NCBI RefSeq assembly: GCF_010672385.1
Contig: NZ_JAAHGT010000026.1
Location: 1-35,473, forward strand
From: Okeania sp. SIO2F4
GTDB taxonomy: Bacteria; Cyanobacteriota; Cyanobacteriia; Cyanobacteriales; Microcoleaceae
DNA: 35,473 nucleotides
Direction of reading: 5' to 3'
A program made the translations under genes and the position numbers. The notes beneath the pieces are model-generated. The model saw nothing but the letters and a program-made list of their open reading frames with translations, was not told where the DNA came from and ran no database searches. Shown piece by piece: positions 3,000 through 29,908 of the stretch (positions are counted from its first letter, which is position 1; each line of letters starts with the position of its first letter).

Positions 3000-4967
3000 T
3001 TATGTTTCATCTTCAGCGATCGTAATCAGTTCATCTGCAAGAGTTAGAGAAAACTTAGCATCCAAACTAGGAGCTAAATAAATACCAAAATTCTTATCTT
3101 TATCTTGAGCTTGAGAATCTATTTTCACACCAACACAAATTTCATCACGAGATTGAGCAGCAAATACACAATCAGCAAAAGATAATTTACCAATCTTTTC
3201 AGGAGGAAAGAAAAGCTCTATAGTTTTAATATACATTTCACTACCTTCTGCCGAAAATAGATCGCGGTAAACTAACATTACACCTGGATCTTGAGATACC
3301 TGAGCTAAAATTTTAGACACAAATTGATTTGATAGCAGAAAATCTTGAACCCCAGCTTTAATTACCAAATCTGTTTCCTCCGAGTCAGCAAGTTCTACCA
3401 CTAATTCTGTTGTAACTGGGTTTCCAGTTTCCTCCTTATATTCTTGGAATATTTGCCTAATTTCTAGTAATGTCGTCAGAGTTTTAGCATCAATTTCTTC
3501 AGAATTTTTACCTTTACTAGCTAAAATTGAGATACTATTATATTTATATAATTCGAGAGTTTTGAGTTCTTCAACAACATCTACATTTATTTGCCTAATT
3601 TGCATTAAAACTTGGGGATAAGCTTGACGAATTTCGTCAAACTTAGTTTCAATTTCCGATGTTAATTTATGAATTGCTAGATTAATTTCTGAACCTTCAA
3701 CTACATATTTAGCATATTCTCGGAGACAGATAGGAGTTTTTGAGTTCCAACCAATAATCAAATGTTTTTCTGTTTTTTTGTCAATAGTTTTTCTGAAGTC
3801 AACATAACCTAACACTTGAGGCTTAACTAAAGGTTCTTGGTGAAATTTTATTTGGGAATCATCTTCTGCTAAAACAATAATTGATTCAGCATCTTTTAAC
3901 TGATAATTGCTATCTGGTTTGATAATTACATCGCCACTTTTATCTAGCACACCGATAGGGATACTTTGATAAAAATGAAAATTTAATTCATAAAAGCTGA
4001 GGTTTTGCCAATCAACTTGAGGACGGTAAATATAAATTTCATTTCCAGCAAAACCAACTAAATTTAAGTATACTGTTGCTAACCCTACAGACCGTGAAGT
4101 TTGGACTAAAATTCTTGCTAAAATATCAGATTCATCCAAAGTAGTTACAGCTTCAGGAGCAATAGTTTTAGCTAAAATACGATATTGTTCTGAGCGAATT
4201 TCAGCTATTATTGGTGGTAGAGAAGATTTTTTTTCTTCATTAGCTGCTACAGTTGCTAAAATTGCTTTAACAACTCTCGCATCGGATAACTTTTTTACAT
4301 CTTGTGTATCCGAACCTTTAGCATTATTTAAAACAACTACCGATCTAGCAACTTTAACTCCTACTTTATTCAGATTATTTATATTTGTTACTACTCCATT
4401 ACGAGTAACTACTCTAGTAGTTTTTAAATCTCCTAATTTTTCCCGAAGAAAATCATCCATATATTCCTTATCTTTTTCTGATAGGATGACAATTGCTGCA
4501 TCAGATTCTGATTCATTTGCTATTACTAGCTCAGTAATAATATCTACAATTCTGTCATTAAAACCTAAGATTAAAGTATGGTTTTGTTCTACTACTAAAC
4601 TTTTTCCTTTTTTCAGCAAAGTCAGTCGTGATTCAAATTCTTGAGTAATAAAAGCTACTAAACTAGAGAAAAGTACCAAACCTAGAAAAATAGTTAAAAC
4701 CCCTATAGTTTTAGTGGCAAAATTTGCCTCGTCTCCCGTGTCTCTGAGACCGATGAGTTGTACAAATACATCCCAAAGCAAATCACTTTCTAAATCTTGA
4801 TTTGGGAAAATCCACTCAGAGAGGTAACGTATACCCGTCATTAATAGGAAAGTCCCAAAAAATGCTGACACTAATGCCAGAAATACCGAGAACCCACCCT
4901 TTGACATAAAGTTGTCAAATTTATACTGAAACTGTTCTTGCCAGGAAAATTTACTTTGAGCAGACAT
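3000..4967 (-). CDS. CASTOR/POLLUX-type ion channel with RCK/TrkA-N domains
   Basis: 655 residues from ATG at 4967; a TTG five codons upstream would also be in frame, but the ATG gives the usual MSAQ-type start. Two membrane helices (about residues 27-48 and 88-110) flank a pore-loop-like stretch DVFVQLIGLRDTGDEA. Next comes a large cytoplasmic part with two Rossmann-like RCK units: HTLILGFNDRIVDIITEL at ~135 and HLIIGWNSKTPICLREYA at ~405. This is the architecture of plant CASTOR/POLLUX and the bacterial proteins related to them, gated cation channels regulated by ligand binding to the RCK ring. Selectivity (K+ or Ca2+) cannot be read from this loop; it lacks a GYGD filter. It is transcribed alone, toward a repeat-filled gap. 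Confidence 0.85.
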   Translation of the reverse strand: MSAQSKFSWQEQFQYKFDNFMSKGGFSVFLALVSAFFGTFLLMTGIRYLSEWIFPNQDLESDLLWDVFVQLIGLRDTGDEANFATKTIGVLTIFLGLVLFSSLVAFITQEFESRLTLLKKGKSLVVEQNHTLILGFNDRIVDIITELVIANESESDAAIVILSEKDKEYMDDFLREKLGDLKTTRVVTRNGVVTNINNLNKVGVKVARSVVVLNNAKGSDTQDVKKLSDARVVKAILATVAANEEKKSSLPPIIAEIRSEQYRILAKTIAPEAVTTLDESDILARILVQTSRSVGLATVYLNLVGFAGNEIYIYRPQVDWQNLSFYELNFHFYQSIPIGVLDKSGDVIIKPDSNYQLKDAESIIVLAEDDSQIKFHQEPLVKPQVLGYVDFRKTIDKKTEKHLIIGWNSKTPICLREYAKYVVEGSEINLAIHKLTSEIETKFDEIRQAYPQVLMQIRQINVDVVEELKTLELYKYNSISILASKGKNSEEIDAKTLTTLLEIRQIFQEYKEETGNPVTTELVVELADSEETDLVIKAGVQDFLLSNQFVSKILAQVSQDPGVMLVYRDLFSAEGSEMYIKTIELFFPPEKIGKLSFADCVFAAQSRDEICVGVKIDSQAQDKDKNFGIYLAPSLDAKFSLTLADELITIAEDET

Positions 4968-5238
4968 AGATTTTTTTTTCAAACTAATATAACTTTACAC
5001 CAAGCTGCTTATATATATCCGACTACGTTAGATAACTATAATTTGATTTGTCATTGATATAGCGCTACTTGAATCGGGAATAGGGAACACTTAACTGGGA
5101 ACAGTAGACTATCAAAGGGTTTCATGATTTATAACTGTCCGCGCCCTTTGCTTCGACTGCTATAATTATACTATATATGTATGTTTAAAAAAATCGGGAA
5201 TTTTTCAGCAAAACTTCTAGACTGAAGAACCATTAAAA

Positions 5239-5874: not shown

Positions 5875-7071
5875 TTACCCCATATCAAAATCTGTAGGGG
5901 CTGATGGTGATTCCTCCCTACTATAGATGGTTCTGGGTAAGTCATGATTATCCTTAATTGCCATTTTCATATTTTTTGTATAGGTCTCTTGGTCAGTAAT
6001 GATATAGAGATTATGAGTAGAAATACCCTCTTTTTCAAATAATCTCATTACACTCAAGTGAAATTTATTCTGATCGCGTCCGTAACCAGTAGGAAGATGA
6101 TATGCAACATATTTAATTACACGAGCATCACCTTCTAGACCTTGGAACATTACATAATACTCTAGAAAAGTACCCATAGTTTTAAATATTTCATCAATAC
6201 CCGCCATAATTATCTCTACTTGGTCTGCTGTAATGCCAGTAATTTTAAACTTTCCTGTGAATCCCCATTCATCAACATCAGCCCTATTTTGAGACCAGTT
6301 ATCTACAATACCACTCACCATTCTAGAATTAGGCATTTTAATAATAGAACCCCACTCCCATGAATACAATTTTGTAGTTCTTAAGCCTATTTCTACTACC
6401 TGAAAAAAACCACTTAACCCTGAAACTCCTATCCACTCACCAGGTTTGTACAATCTATCAGTATATATAATTACAGCACAACACCAGTCATAGATAATAT
6501 CTTTGAACAACAAACCTAGAGCAACACCAGCACCACCAAGCAAACCAATAAGAGCTCCTGCAGATGTTCCTAAAAATACTTCTGCTGCTTTAATAGATAC
6601 CACAACAATTGCTGCGATCCGAAATAGTCTTGGGAAATAAGGAACAAGCAAATCATCAAGGTCTGTTTGAGTATGCATAGTTAGGTACTGTAGTAAATTA
6701 CCCAGCAAAGGAGCTGCATTGTAAGTCACATAGGCACCCAGAGTAATAAAGGCTAAACCAAAAATATCAGTGATTATTTCTTGTAACTGAGAACTCAAAT
6801 ATTCTATTAAAATAATCTTTATTATCCATAGTCCAACTACCAAAATTAACCATGATAGGGGCTTTTTGATAATAGCAATTAATTGATCGTCTAAGTCAGA
6901 TTCAGTGTTGGCAACAAGAGCTTCGATCCGCTTAATGATTATTTCAGCAATAATTCCCTGTAGTATTGCTGTTAACAGCAGCACGCCAAATGCAATTAAT
7001 AGTTTATATGCGGGTATACCAGCAATACTAATTCCTTCAAGACTTTTCCAAAATGTTTCTAAGAATTCCAT
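5875..7071 (-). CDS. MscS-family mechanosensitive ion channel
   Basis: 398 residues. The start is ATG at 7071, because GAGGAA lies 5 nt before it, although TTG at 7089 is in frame. N-terminal helices at about residues 20-42, 68-90 and 98-120 are followed by the MscS core: a pore-lining helix with GALIGLLGGAGVALGLLFKD, then the beta domain with YTDRLYKPGEWIGVSG and the IKMPNSRMVSGIVDNWSQ strand typical of MscS (I/LPN motif), and a mixed alpha/beta C-terminal domain. Such channels release solutes on hypo-osmotic shock. It is larger than E. coli MscS (286 aa) because of extra N-terminal helices, as in MscM-like relatives. It sits between a CASTOR/POLLUX channel and a Cache-channel fusion. Confidence 0.88.
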   Translation of the reverse strand: MEFLETFWKSLEGISIAGIPAYKLLIAFGVLLLTAILQGIIAEIIIKRIEALVANTESDLDDQLIAIIKKPLSWLILVVGLWIIKIILIEYLSSQLQEIITDIFGLAFITLGAYVTYNAAPLLGNLLQYLTMHTQTDLDDLLVPYFPRLFRIAAIVVVSIKAAEVFLGTSAGALIGLLGGAGVALGLLFKDIIYDWCCAVIIYTDRLYKPGEWIGVSGLSGFFQVVEIGLRTTKLYSWEWGSIIKMPNSRMVSGIVDNWSQNRADVDEWGFTGKFKITGITADQVEIIMAGIDEIFKTMGTFLEYYVMFQGLEGDARVIKYVAYHLPTGYGRDQNKFHLSVMRLFEKEGISTHNLYIITDQETYTKNMKMAIKDNHDLPRTIYSREESPSAPTDFDMG

Positions 7072-8143
7072 TCTTTGTTCCTCGATCAAATTTCAATTTA
7101 GGTATTGTTTCTCAGGATAAAATACTTTCTACTCTAGTCAACTGAGGGATAGTCTGATGCCAAGTATAAGCCAAGCTTCCGAAACAAAAAGTTATACTTT
7201 TTGACTGAATATGGTTTATATTGTGCTTTTATACTTTACCAATAATCTTTTTATACAAAGTGCTAAGAAAATTAAGTTTTTCTTAAAATTGTTAGACTTT
7301 GAAGTAAAGTTGCAGTTTTTTTGTTATTCTCCCACAGTTATTTGTCTAGCTAGTAGAAAATTATATAATTGTTTCTTAATCTAAAACTCATAGTCACCGA
7401 CTATAATTTCAATATCCTTGCCATAGCCTGATATTTATACTTGATAATTACTTGTATTATTTGGCCTGGTTTTCAAAATTTGCCTAGAAATCTAGAGAAT
7501 TTAGATTAATAACAGAAATAGTTTTGCTAAATGAGGATAAATGATTTATACCAGGATTGTCAATGGGGAATGAGGGGTCATTTCAGTTATCAGTTATCAG
7601 TTATCAGTTATCAGTACCTCTGCAATCAGGAGGGTTGACACCAGGAATATTCTCTTTTTTTATCCCCAATTTTTTGGTCAAAAAATTAGGATTTTGGTTT
7701 GTGAGTAATCCTGGACAAAGATATTCCTATTTATTCTTGTATAGATAGATACTTTTGTATATATAAATAGACTTGCTGTTATAACTATTGATAGCTTAAT
7801 AGTACAACATGATAAATGTTAGGCATAAAACCAATAATCTAATAATACTTGAGTCAAAGTCTTATTTGAGCCTTCAATTCTCAATATCATCAAATTTTGC
7901 TTGTTATCAAAGCAGACAATTAAAATTGGGGAAAATCTATATTTATCTCCCTATATTTGTTGGTAAAATCTCAAATTACCTATAACTCATATATTTAGAT
8001 AGGAGAAATAGTTATTCACAGAAATATGATGGGGATAGCCGAGGCGATCGCTGCTTCATAAACACTAATAAACTAAGCTAAAAATCGTCAACATTCTCTG
8101 ATATTGTTTCCACAAACAAAAATTATATAGGCAAATAAAGATT
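7072..8143. other. Repeat-poor gap upstream of the Cache-channel gene
   Basis: About 1.07 kb without a supportable gene on either strand. It holds an (AGTTATC)n array at 7583-7614, one HIP1 site at ~8044, and otherwise AT-rich sequence. Promoters for the divergent mscS-like (left) and Cache-channel (right) genes should lie here, but no convincing -10/-35 pair stands out. Confidence 0.5.
7583..7614. repeat. AGTTATC heptanucleotide array
   Basis: Four and a half units, with GTCATTTC on one side and AGTACCTCTGCAAT on the other. The inverse of the same arrangement (TTGCAGAGGTAC, then ACTGATA units, then GAAACGAC) occurs at 24130-24182. Confidence 0.85.
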
Positions 8144-10372
8144 ATGAAAATCAACAAAAAAATCGAAGCTCCCCCGATGAAAAAACAGAAAAAATATCAA
8201 AAAATCAAAACTAAAATATACCTTTTCTTACATAAAACATTAACTATTAATAATGCTAGTAAACCACAAATAATAGTATTTTACACATCCTTAATCCTGG
8301 GTGGAATTAGTTTGACATTTGCAATATTAGGGTCATTATTATATACACTCGAACAAAAAGAGATATTTGATAATGCTAAACAGGAAGCTCAACGGGCAAC
8401 ATCTAGAGTTGCTCTTGAGATTGATCGGCGACTGTATTTTGCCCAACAATCAGCTATTTCTGTAGCCAACGACCTGAGTTCTGGTAAATTAAGCGATGAA
8501 GAATTATTAGAGCGACTTAAATTAGAAGTTGAGGAAAATACTGATTTTTTAGATGTTGGTGTTGCCTATAAACCCTTTGCTTATAGATCGGATGTCAAAC
8601 TTTATGCACCATATTATGCAAGAATAGATAACGAAATAGAGCTAAAAGAAACTAAAGTTAACTATACTAAACCTAAATATTCTTGGTATAGTAATACTAT
8701 AAATAAAGGACCAAATTGGGGTGAACCTTATTTCTGGAGTGATACTTCTATAATCAGCGATCCGGTCGTCGGATTTTTTACTCCTTTTTATAACTCAAAT
8801 ACTCAAGATAATTCTCCACGAGGTATTGTATATAGCGAATATTCATTAAGTAGAATCCTAGAGATAGTGCGGTCTCTAAACTTGGGTAAAACTGGCTACG
8901 GATTTATTATTTCTGAAACAGGAACTTACCTTTATCACCCTAATGAAGAATATTTTAAAGCTCAATTAAATATCTTTGACATTACCTATCAACAGCAGGA
9001 TGAACAACTCAGAGAATTGATTGTTAAAGCAATGAAAGGTATACCAGTAGAAGCAAATTTAACCGATAAAGTAACAGGTCAAAATTCTTGGTTATTTCTG
9101 CGGAAAACTAACCTGAATGGATGGGTAGTAGGAATAGTGTTTATTGAAGATGAAATTATCCCAGATTCAGACGTCACAAGACGGAAGTTAACTGCTATTA
9201 GCATCGCCTACCTTTGGTTTGCTGTTTTTTTCTCAGTTCTATTATTTAAAGTTTATATGGGAGGTGTAAAACGAATTTCATTAGTATCATTTATTATTAG
9301 TATATTGTTTGTAATAAATATTGGTTTTGTTTGGAGTTTAGTATTGAAAGCAAGAACTTATACAGCAACTCGAAACCTTTTGCTTAGTGATACTGGTGTT
9401 AGACAATTATTAGTTCCTCAAATACGCTTAAGTAGAGAATTAAATCAAAAACCTCCTCTAATTGTTCCTACAGGAGTTTTTATTCAATCATTTGATTTTA
9501 CCAGTCCGAAAGATGTTTTTGTTACGGGTTATATATGGCAAAAATACAAAGATGGGGTACATGATGATTTATCTCGTGGCATTATACTTGCTGATGCGAT
9601 TGAAGATAGTGATTATGAACTAAGAGAAGATTATCGATATAAAAAAGATGGTGTAGAAATTATCGGTTGGTACTTTGCTTATACCCTACGCATGAATTTT
9701 AATTTTGACTATTATCCTTTTGATGATAAAGATTTAAAAATTCGGATTTGGCATCAGGATTTTAACAATGGAGAGTTAAATCGTCGGGTAATTCTTGCCC
9801 CTGACTTTCAGAGTTATACTGTAATTAATCCACGAACTGCTCCAGGGGTAGACAAAGCAATTGTATTGGGAGAATGGTATCTCAGGGATAGTTTTTTCGA
9901 GTACCTATTTCAGACATACAATACTAATTTTGGTTTGATTGATACTGTACCAAGAACTAATTTTCCGGAACTTGCATTTACCATCATTCTACAAAGAGAT
10001 TTCTTGGGTTTGTTTATTTCTAAAGTTGGACCAATGATTGTAGTTTTAACCCTCTTATTTGCTGTACTCTTAGTTTCCAATCAAGAACAACCCATGGAAG
10101 TTTTGGGAGCTTGTGCAGGTTTTGTATTTATTGTTATCCTAGATCAGGTGACAGTTAGACAACAAATAATTACTAGAGGAATTGTTTATTTGGAGTATTT
10201 TTACTTTATTGTTTATTTATATATTTTCTTGGTATCTGTTAACTTTATCCTCTGGAGTTTGAAGCCAAATTTTCCTCTTTTTCAGTATAAAGATAACTTT
10301 ATTTTGAAGGCGTGTTATTGGCCAACTATGCTGAAGATTTTGCTGCTGGTCACTATTTTGGTATTTATCTAA
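8144..10372 (+). CDS. Cache sensor fused to a pentameric ligand-gated ion channel-like module
   Basis: 742 residues. TM1 (~43-67) is followed by a dCache-type extracytoplasmic sensor (~75-335), seen from WYSNTINKGPNWGEPYFW and GKTGYGFIISETGTYLYHP. TM2 (~346-368) and TM3 (~376-398) return the chain to the periplasm. Next is a beta-rich region (~400-618) holding YYPFDDKDLKIRIW at ~523-536, the PFD loop of the Cys-loop receptor family, which lacks the cysteines as in prokaryotic members. Four closely packed helices follow (M1 ~622-645 with a proline, M2 ~655-678, M3 ~684-712, M4 ~722-742), in the spacing of GLIC-type channels. Predicted role: an inner-membrane ion channel whose gating is coupled to a small-molecule-binding Cache domain. 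The Cache assignment is strong; the channel assignment rests on motif and topology. ATG chosen; a second Met at codon 12 is possible. Confidence 0.78.
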   Translation: MKINKKIEAPPMKKQKKYQKIKTKIYLFLHKTLTINNASKPQIIVFYTSLILGGISLTFAILGSLLYTLEQKEIFDNAKQEAQRATSRVALEIDRRLYFAQQSAISVANDLSSGKLSDEELLERLKLEVEENTDFLDVGVAYKPFAYRSDVKLYAPYYARIDNEIELKETKVNYTKPKYSWYSNTINKGPNWGEPYFWSDTSIISDPVVGFFTPFYNSNTQDNSPRGIVYSEYSLSRILEIVRSLNLGKTGYGFIISETGTYLYHPNEEYFKAQLNIFDITYQQQDEQLRELIVKAMKGIPVEANLTDKVTGQNSWLFLRKTNLNGWVVGIVFIEDEIIPDSDVTRRKLTAISIAYLWFAVFFSVLLFKVYMGGVKRISLVSFIISILFVINIGFVWSLVLKARTYTATRNLLLSDTGVRQLLVPQIRLSRELNQKPPLIVPTGVFIQSFDFTSPKDVFVTGYIWQKYKDGVHDDLSRGIILADAIEDSDYELREDYRYKKDGVEIIGWYFAYTLRMNFNFDYYPFDDKDLKIRIWHQDFNNGELNRRVILAPDFQSYTVINPRTAPGVDKAIVLGEWYLRDSFFEYLFQTYNTNFGLIDTVPRTNFPELAFTIILQRDFLGLFISKVGPMIVVLTLLFAVLLVSNQEQPMEVLGACAGFVFIVILDQVTVRQQIITRGIVYLEYFYFIVYLYIFLVSVNFILWSLKPNFPLFQYKDNFILKACYWPTMLKILLLVTILVFI

Positions 10373-28171: not shown

Positions 28172-29908
28172 ATGAAATTAAAGAGAATCATTATCATAAT
28201 TATTATTAGCAATCTACTCAATATAAATACAACAAATATCAGGAATTTTATTGTTAGGATTGCAACCATTATTCCACTAATAACACCAAAAATTGCTATT
28301 GGAGCGACAGAATCAGAAATTAACAAAATCGCAGCAGAAATTACAGTTAGAATTGACGGACAAAATAGAAGTGGTTCAGGAGTAATTGTCGAAAAACAAG
28401 GAGACACATATTATGTACTCACCAACTGGCACGTTGTCAATAAAGTAGGAGACTATCAAGTACGCACACCTGATGGAAAAATGCACCAAGTTTACTATAC
28501 CCTAATCAAACAAGTGCCAAATGTAGACTTAGCGATCGTACCATTTAGCAGTTCTCAAAACTACCCCATTGTGGAAACAGGAGACCCAACTCAGTTAGTT
28601 CCCGGAAAAAAGGTATTTGTCGGGGGATGGCCTCGTTCTGGCAGCAACCTCAAGCAACGAATTTTTCTCAGTACCGCAGGAATGGTAACAGGTCGTCAGC
28701 AACCTGTTGCTGGTTATAGTTTACTCTATGATAATTTAGTCAGAGCAGGAATGAGTGGCGGACCTGTACTAAATGAAGAAGGTCACTTAGTAGGTATTAA
28801 CGGTATTGTCAAATTGCAAGAAAACTCTGATGTCATTGTCTCAGGAGGTATTGAAATTGATACTTTTTGGAACTGGCGACAACGGGTTTCATTGCCAATT
28901 GTTTCCCAAGTACCTCAAACTATTCAAACCCCAGCAACTCCAACAGAAACAACAAATTCTGTTCCTACAACTACTTCCACCAAAGAAAACGGAACCGAAA
29001 CTACTGTAAACTTTACTCTAGCAAAAGCAATTACCGATGAAATTAGTGGAATAGTTAATTCTATAGTAGCTCTAAATGCTTACATCGTTATGGGTAGCAG
29101 TAACGGTATGATTTCAGTGTGGGATATTAAGAATGGGGAAATTATAGCTACCTGGAAAGCACATCCAGAGTCAGTAAACTCCGTCACAGTGACTCCTGAT
29201 GAACAATTCGTTATCAGTGGTAGTGATGACAAAACTATCAAAATATGGAAACTACCCAAAAATAAAAATATTACTGATATTACCCTGGTGGGAACTCTCA
29301 CAGGACATACTGATGTAGTAGATGGAGTAGCGATCGCTCCTAACGGTCAAATTTTAGCAAGTGGCAGTTGGGATGGAACTATTAAAGTTTGGAATTTGGG
29401 TAGTGGGGAGTTGCTCCAAACCTTAGAAGGACATGCTGAGATAGTCAACGCGATCGCAATTAGTCCAGATGGGCAATTTTTAGCTAGTGGTAGTAAGGAT
29501 AATCAGATTAAATTGTGGAATTTGCCAACAGGTCAACTGGTTCGTACTATCAATACTAATTCTCTCTCAATTTTATCTGTAGTTTTCAGTCCTGATAGTC
29601 AGATATTAGCTAGTAGTAGTAGTGATGGCATGATTAATATTTGGAACTTACAGACAGGTCAATTAATCCATAATTTAAAAGAACATATAGATGGAGTTTG
29701 GTCAATAGTTATTACTCCTAATGGTAAAACGTTAATTAGTGGTAGTTGGGATCAAACAATCAAATTTTGGGAATTAAGTACAGGTAAATTAAAAGGAAGT
29801 TTAAGCGGACACAACAGTTATATTAGTGCAGTAGCAATTAGTCCTAATGGGCAAACAATAGTTAGTGGTGGTTGGGACCGGAAGATTAATATTTGGAAAG
29901 TTCCTTAA
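28172..29908 (+). CDS. Trypsin-like serine protease fused to a seven-blade WD40 propeller
   Basis: 578 residues. N-terminal hydrophobic segment (~5-44, ending IAIGA) is a likely signal or anchor. Protease domain ~45-235: His87 in LTNWHVV, Asp119 in NVDLAIV and Ser195 in RAGMSGGPV form a complete triad, and GSGVIVEKQGDTYYVLT is the HtrA-like first barrel. A Thr/Pro-rich linker (~240-280) leads to seven WD40 repeats (~288-578), ending SVWD, KIWK, KVWN, KLWN, NIWN, KFWE and NIWK, one closed propeller. No PDZ domain. It is expected to act outside the cytoplasm, the propeller docking substrates or partners. Protease-WD40 fusions are known in filamentous cyanobacteria; the substrate is not. ATG at 28172 lacks a strong ribosome-binding site. 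Confidence 0.9.
   Translation: MKLKRIIIIIIISNLLNINTTNIRNFIVRIATIIPLITPKIAIGATESEINKIAAEITVRIDGQNRSGSGVIVEKQGDTYYVLTNWHVVNKVGDYQVRTPDGKMHQVYYTLIKQVPNVDLAIVPFSSSQNYPIVETGDPTQLVPGKKVFVGGWPRSGSNLKQRIFLSTAGMVTGRQQPVAGYSLLYDNLVRAGMSGGPVLNEEGHLVGINGIVKLQENSDVIVSGGIEIDTFWNWRQRVSLPIVSQVPQTIQTPATPTETTNSVPTTTSTKENGTETTVNFTLAKAITDEISGIVNSIVALNAYIVMGSSNGMISVWDIKNGEIIATWKAHPESVNSVTVTPDEQFVISGSDDKTIKIWKLPKNKNITDITLVGTLTGHTDVVDGVAIAPNGQILASGSWDGTIKVWNLGSGELLQTLEGHAEIVNAIAISPDGQFLASGSKDNQIKLWNLPTGQLVRTINTNSLSILSVVFSPDSQILASSSSDGMINIWNLQTGQLIHNLKEHIDGVWSIVITPNGKTLISGSWDQTIKFWELSTGKLKGSLSGHNSYISAVAISPNGQTIVSGGWDRKINIWKVP

Follow-up and report, generated by a model that had tools for sequence, protein, structure and literature searches.

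The window, a stretch of 35,473 nucleotides from the genome of Okeania sp. SIO2F4, carries a gene for a protein that is predicted to join an N-terminal Cache sensor domain to a C-terminal half of the pentameric ligand-gated ion channel (pLGIC) type (Table 1). The reading frame begins with ATG and contains no internal stop among its 742 codons, and the window copy is the only full-length match to the protein in this genome. The gene stands alone. Upstream lie a divergent MscS-like gene (5875-7089) and, on the reverse strand, a gene for a CASTOR/POLLUX-like channel with Castor_Poll_mid and Slo-like RCK matches (3000-4982). Both of the closest relatives also have the MscS-like gene, and the Okeania relative L006 has the CASTOR/POLLUX-like gene too, in the same gene order. 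A role of the window gene in an operon was rejected, as conservation of these neighbours is confined to the closest relatives. The window also encodes a trypsin-like protease fused to WD40 repeats (28172-29908, forward strand).

The source assembly consists of 1512 contigs, which raises the question of whether two unrelated halves have been fused by an assembly or frameshift artefact. This reading has a negligible probability and was rejected. The frame is free of stops and of any change of frame, and homologues in independent genomes carry the same fusion, which recurs in many unrelated assemblies, including single-contig genomes and a Vibrio replicon. The order of parts, TM-Cache-TM-TM-ECD-4TM (TM, transmembrane segment; ECD, extracellular domain), is kept in homologues at 22-87% identity.

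Table 1. Parts of the Cache-pLGIC gene, with positions in the window and the evidence for each
Feature	Residues	Position	Strand	Evidence or remark
Cache-pLGIC fusion gene	742 aa	8144..10372	+	single ORF; dN/dS 0.17-0.25 against three relatives
Basic cytoplasmic N-terminal tail	1-41	8144..8266	+	K/R-rich
TM1, in to out	42-69	8267..8350	+	hydropathy 2.13; in 16/16 aligned sequences
Periplasmic double Cache (dCache_1)	70-347	8351..9184	+	Pfam and PDB matches
TM2, out to in	348-372	9185..9259	+	hydropathy 2.21; in 16/16 aligned sequences
TM3 (hairpin arm 2), in to out	376-403	9269..9352	+	hydropathy 2.59
Linker from TM3 to extracellular domain	404-440 (37 residues)	9353..9463	+	65-87% identity, three relatives
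pLGIC-type extracellular beta-sandwich	441-618	9464..9997	+	hhalign, ECD alone, E=2e-19; GLIC match
Pro-loop YPFD	524-527	9713..9724	+	P in 18/18 family members and 20/20 other pLGICs
M1, after pre-M1 Arg618	619-649	9998..10090	+	hhalign, TMD alone, E=6.7e-7
M2, predicted pore helix	651-672	10094..10159	+	register agrees between hhalign and MAFFT
M3	679-707	10178..10264	+	hydropathy; E/D at helix start in 18/18
M4	723-742	10310..10369	+	hydropathy; full-length hhalign alignment extends into M4

Membrane topology and the Cache domain

Hydropathy finds seven TM segments, the approximate limits of which are given in Table 1, and they follow the order proposed in the first-pass annotation: TM, Cache, two TM, a beta-rich domain with the YPFD loop, and four TM. 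The same annotation held that the Cache domain is tethered by membrane helices of its own, and this is borne out by TM1 and TM2, which flank it in all 16 aligned sequences. If the N-terminus is cytoplasmic, it follows from seven TM segments that the Cache and the beta-rich domain would both lie outside, which is the expected location for a Cache and for a pLGIC-type domain. The short turn between TM2 and TM3 bears 1-4 Lys/Arg residues in the 16 aligned sequences; here it reads GGVKRI and directly follows TM2. The hydropathy of TM3 spans 1.3-2.6 across homologues, and a Cache-less homologue from Acaryochloris (P0002) retains TM3 as an N-terminal anchor. The N-terminal tail is poorly conserved, with 54-81% identity to the copies in L005 and L006, and is mostly missing in other homologues.

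The Pfam model dCache_1 matches the window protein with E=2.7e-10 and 40.6 bits, just below its gathering cut-off of 45, and two homologues exceed this cut-off (51.5 bits in L008 and 58.9 bits in L009). MCP-like_PDC_1 (37.6 bits, cut-off 27, E=3.3e-9) and dCache_2 (26.6 bits, just over the cut-off, E=4.1e-6) also match. In the PDB all matches to this half are sensor domains (3li8, PctB and other MCPs), starting from E=1.9e-7. As a prediction from sequence, the assignment of the N-terminal half to the Cache domains is secure.

The dCache_1AA motif of amino-acid sensors comprises residues Y121, R126, W128, Y129, Y144 and D173 of PctA (residue roles from PMC10104139). In the phmmer alignment to PctB, read by eye, four of the six are kept, as Y174, W181, Y182 and Y196. 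The protein differs from PctA at the other two, R126 being replaced by Tyr179 and D173 by Glu232. Since the motif is incomplete, with neither the carboxylate-binding Arg nor the conserved Asp present, the reading of the domain as an amino-acid sensor of the dCache_1AA type was dropped.

The channel half and its pore helix

The first-pass annotation had looked to dCache_1 and the Neur_chan models for recognition of the two halves. On the sensor side this is largely so, with MCP-like_PDC_1 and dCache_2 over their cut-offs and dCache_1 just under, but the Neur_chan models do not match single sequences. Pfam and NCBIfam searches with the window protein found no channel model for the C-terminal half, and Pfam searches with single homologue sequences likewise gave no channel match. 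Homology was therefore shown via family profiles. A profile of 15 homologues matches GLIC in the PDB with E=1e-10, in an alignment that runs from before the Pro-loop through M3, and all 60 displayed PDB matches are variants of GLIC. Comparison by hhalign with pLGICs of the same phylum, as found by the Pfam LBD model, gives a probability of 98.3% (E=1.8e-14). With larger sets the values are 99.7% (E=3e-26) for the full length, 99.2% for the extracellular domain alone and 92% for the membrane domain alone, in which M1 to M3 are aligned, and reversed and column-shuffled controls give 0.5% or less. The membrane domain alone matches the smaller set only weakly, with a probability of 5%; the membrane half is therefore the more diverged one. 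Taken together the profile comparisons are decisive for the predicted homology of the C-terminal half to pLGICs in both its extracellular and its membrane domain. The presence of a Cache domain and a Cys-loop-type (Pro-loop) channel in one chain of 742 residues, as first annotated, thus holds, by Pfam and PDB matches for the former and by family profiles for the latter.

Residues typical of the superfamily can be followed through the alignment. Pro525 of the Pro-loop is invariant in the 18 family members, the Asp of the PFD motif is kept in 13 of them and is Asn in the other five, and the spacing of M1-M4 is also retained, in agreement with what had been expected of homologues. Trp578 is conserved in 17 of the 18, the pre-M1 Arg618 in 17 of the 18 and in 17 of 20 other pLGICs, and an acidic residue stands at the start of M3 in every member. 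At the helix-bending position of M1, for which Pro or else Gly or Ser is expected, this protein has Pro (Pro630), as do 11/18 of the family. AlphaFold2 models of the full length and of the C-terminal half, built with three close sequences as alignment, have pLDDT values of 33 and 40, too low for use. AChBP, GLIC and GABA-A chains were among the many matches of a Foldseek search with the low-confidence model, no match reaching significance.

Surveys built on the Pfam channel models undercount bacterial pLGICs, as these models miss the family. Another case of this undercounting was met within the pLGIC tree. Two proteins from one bacterial family, in frames of 407 and 427 aa (L073:958-2175 and L076:925-2184, both forward), are placed there, and that of L073, which is identical to one in L022, has no Pfam match.

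In the M2 register Glu652 corresponds to position -1', Val653 to 0', Phe662 to 9' and Arg672 to 19'. Position 9', the usual site of the hydrophobic gate, is Phe in 18/18 family members and Leu in most other pLGICs; in GLIC it is Ile, and the cytoplasmic end of the GLIC M2 is polar. Position 0' is Val or Ile in all 18 members and Arg in 13 of 20 other pLGICs, a basic 0' residue being common but not universal in pLGICs at large (79%; Jaiteh et al., 2016). Position 19' is Arg or His throughout the family. In the 10 of 18 members in which -1' is acidic, Glu652 here, this residue would fit cation selectivity if the register is correct. The M2 pattern as a whole (no basic 0', Phe at 9', Arg or His at 19') yields predictions on selectivity and gating.

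As M2 is very hydrophobic and lacks the basic 0' residue, and as -1' is acidic in 10 of the 18 only, conduction is not assured. These features, together with the invariant Phe 9', would also suit a pLGIC-derived signalling module that does not conduct, in which the Cache ligand alters a protein interaction and not ion flow. Such a module is improbable, given that M1-M4 are conserved under purifying selection and that neither a cytoplasmic interaction domain nor a clade-wide partner gene was seen.

Distribution, gene arrangements and origin

Among samples of the phylum, a sequence search matched 16 of 292 genomes and a profile search 26 of 386. Fifteen of the 26, the window's own genome included, hold members of the clade (E<1e-100); the remainder hold ordinary or PBP-fused pLGICs. 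Outside the phylum the full architecture is found in a 692-aa protein of the Vibrio replicon, and a scan of viral contigs with this Vibrio homologue found no relative. In a maximum-likelihood tree built from channel modules, the 18 of this family form one clade (support 100/100), within which five single-Cache members group together (81/84), although the long branches of the tree call for caution on any finer reading. The sensor is thus a double Cache, a single Cache or absent on one channel scaffold, which makes the clade a natural series. The Cache-less homologue is encoded on an Acaryochloris plasmid, and its existence means that the channel can be retained without the sensor. Values of dN/dS are 0.16-0.26 in the Cache domain, the extracellular domain and the membrane domain alike. 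All modules are under purifying selection, and the sensor is therefore maintained as strictly as the channel.

In the Vibrio replicon (L036:445-4696) a solute-binding/permease gene containing SBP_bac_3, a short membrane-protein gene and the Cache-pLGIC gene follow each other with 4-base overlaps, and this operon-like run suggests a small solute as the ligand of the Cache-pLGIC protein. Two different families share another neighbour of the Cache-pLGIC gene, which encodes a protein that is large and probably secreted (L042:6047-8902 and L044:2221-6066). The two large proteins are 53% identical, with weak matches to a 5'-nucleotidase C-terminal domain and to PBPs, and in L042 the two genes overlap by 4 bases. 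One copy of the Cache-pLGIC gene is broken within M2 by a stretch of about 1.27 kb (L043:3735-5001, genome G002), which contains a 233-aa open reading frame without a Pfam match; the copies in sister genomes are intact.

A stand-alone TM-Cache-TM gene adjoins a canonical pLGIC gene in L026 and L029, in opposite orders, the L026 Cache copy matching dCache_3. These pairs repeat the arrangement reported from Rhodopseudomonas, where a stand-alone Cache gene lies beside a channel gene (Tasneem et al., 2005, PMC549065). They suggest that the hairpin may represent the second Cache helix and the former signal helix of the channel. The most likely source of the fusion would be such a joining of genes, in which a TM-Cache-TM gene was placed before a channel whose N-terminal signal helix persisted as TM3.

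Coupling of sensor and channel

The periplasmic TM-dCache-TM module is shared with the dCache_1 chemoreceptors (PctA, PctB and the MmHK sensor 3li8), from which the window protein differs in that its predicted output is a channel and not an MCP, kinase or cyclase. Beyond the variable tail and short loops there is no cytoplasmic domain, so the signal of the Cache domain would go to the channel or to another partner, and given the absence of a cytoplasmic effector domain the channel is its only plausible output. The reading that we favour, with reasonable but far from full confidence, is that of a divergent channel receptor of the Pro-loop type (Cys-loop superfamily) in which a ligand-responsive Cache domain alters channel opening. 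Five subunits would assemble around a pore lined by M2, and a periplasmic small molecule would bind to the Cache domain and shift TM1 and TM2. By way of the neighbouring TM3 and the conserved linker this shift could reach the extracellular domain and M1-M4, and channel opening would change as a result. In this family membrane helices stand between the sensor and the extracellular domain, and it would lend itself to tests of through-membrane gating of a Cys-loop-type pore by a chemoreceptor sensor. A more specific proposal, which we put forward tentatively, is that the clade is a monophyletic pLGIC class whose interchangeable sensor, anchored in the membrane, governs a pore of atypical charge pattern by signalling of the chemoreceptor kind through an intramembrane hairpin, with TM1-TM3 packing on M1-M4.

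The main rival to sensor-controlled opening places the stimulus at the extracellular domain of the channel itself, where ligands or protons would act as in GLIC and ELIC, the Cache domain being only a modulator, an assembly module or a concentrator of ligand. We regard this as rather unlikely. It is in line with the variation of the sensor, which in this one clade is double, single or lacking, and with the retention of the channel by the Cache-less Acaryochloris homologue. The N-terminal domain of DeCLIC modulates gating without switching it (PMC9897478, PMC12664993), and a role in ligand concentration was proposed for such extra domains by Tasneem et al. (PMC549065). The equal purifying selection on Cache domain and channel argues against this rival.

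DeCLIC, too, is a pLGIC in which an extra periplasmic N-terminal domain influences gating, and according to PMC9897478 no other pLGIC with such a domain has a known structure. Its extra domain differs from that described here in consisting of two calcium-binding jelly-roll lobes, not a Cache domain, that pack on the extracellular domain and are not tethered to the membrane. The effect of extra N-terminal domains on pLGIC gating is poorly understood. GLIC, which the family profile matches best in the PDB, shares the extracellular beta-sandwich with its Pro-loop, the pre-M1 Arg and M1-M4, but has neither sensor domain nor hairpin (PDB 3eam and others).

Joining a Cache domain to a channel is not in itself a novelty. 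Fusions of Cache or MCP-N domains to bacterial and archaeal pLGICs were described in 2005, those with Cache from Methanosarcina, Cytophaga and Microbulbifer (Tasneem et al., PMC549065). The window protein resembles these in that a Cache-type periplasmic sensor precedes, in a single chain, a ligand-binding domain of the pLGIC kind and a channel of four TM segments. The 2005 text locates the extra domains after the signal peptide and before the ligand-binding domain and mentions no internal TM helices (PMC549065), whereas in the window protein TM2 and TM3 lie between the Cache domain and the extracellular domain. The open literature, to which the search was confined (subscription papers lay outside its scope), yielded no description of a membrane-tethered Cache domain on a pLGIC. 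What appears to be new is the seven-TM, hairpin-tethered topology, together with a clade of its own and the unusual pore, set apart from the earlier fusions by their description.

Other sensor fusions were encountered in the same searches. Cyanobacterial PBP-I-pLGIC fusions of about 750-780 aa (L072:1207-3543, reverse; L079:217-2478, forward), one of them in a genome from the window's own family, match the PBP-I type of Tasneem et al. Two tandem genes on the reverse strand of L050 (900-4463 and 4550-8101), with counterparts in L021 and L024, encode proteins of about 1185 residues in which Peripla_BP_6 (a type I PBP) is followed by a pLGIC module and, after M4, by SBP_bac_1, so that the pLGIC lies between two binding proteins.
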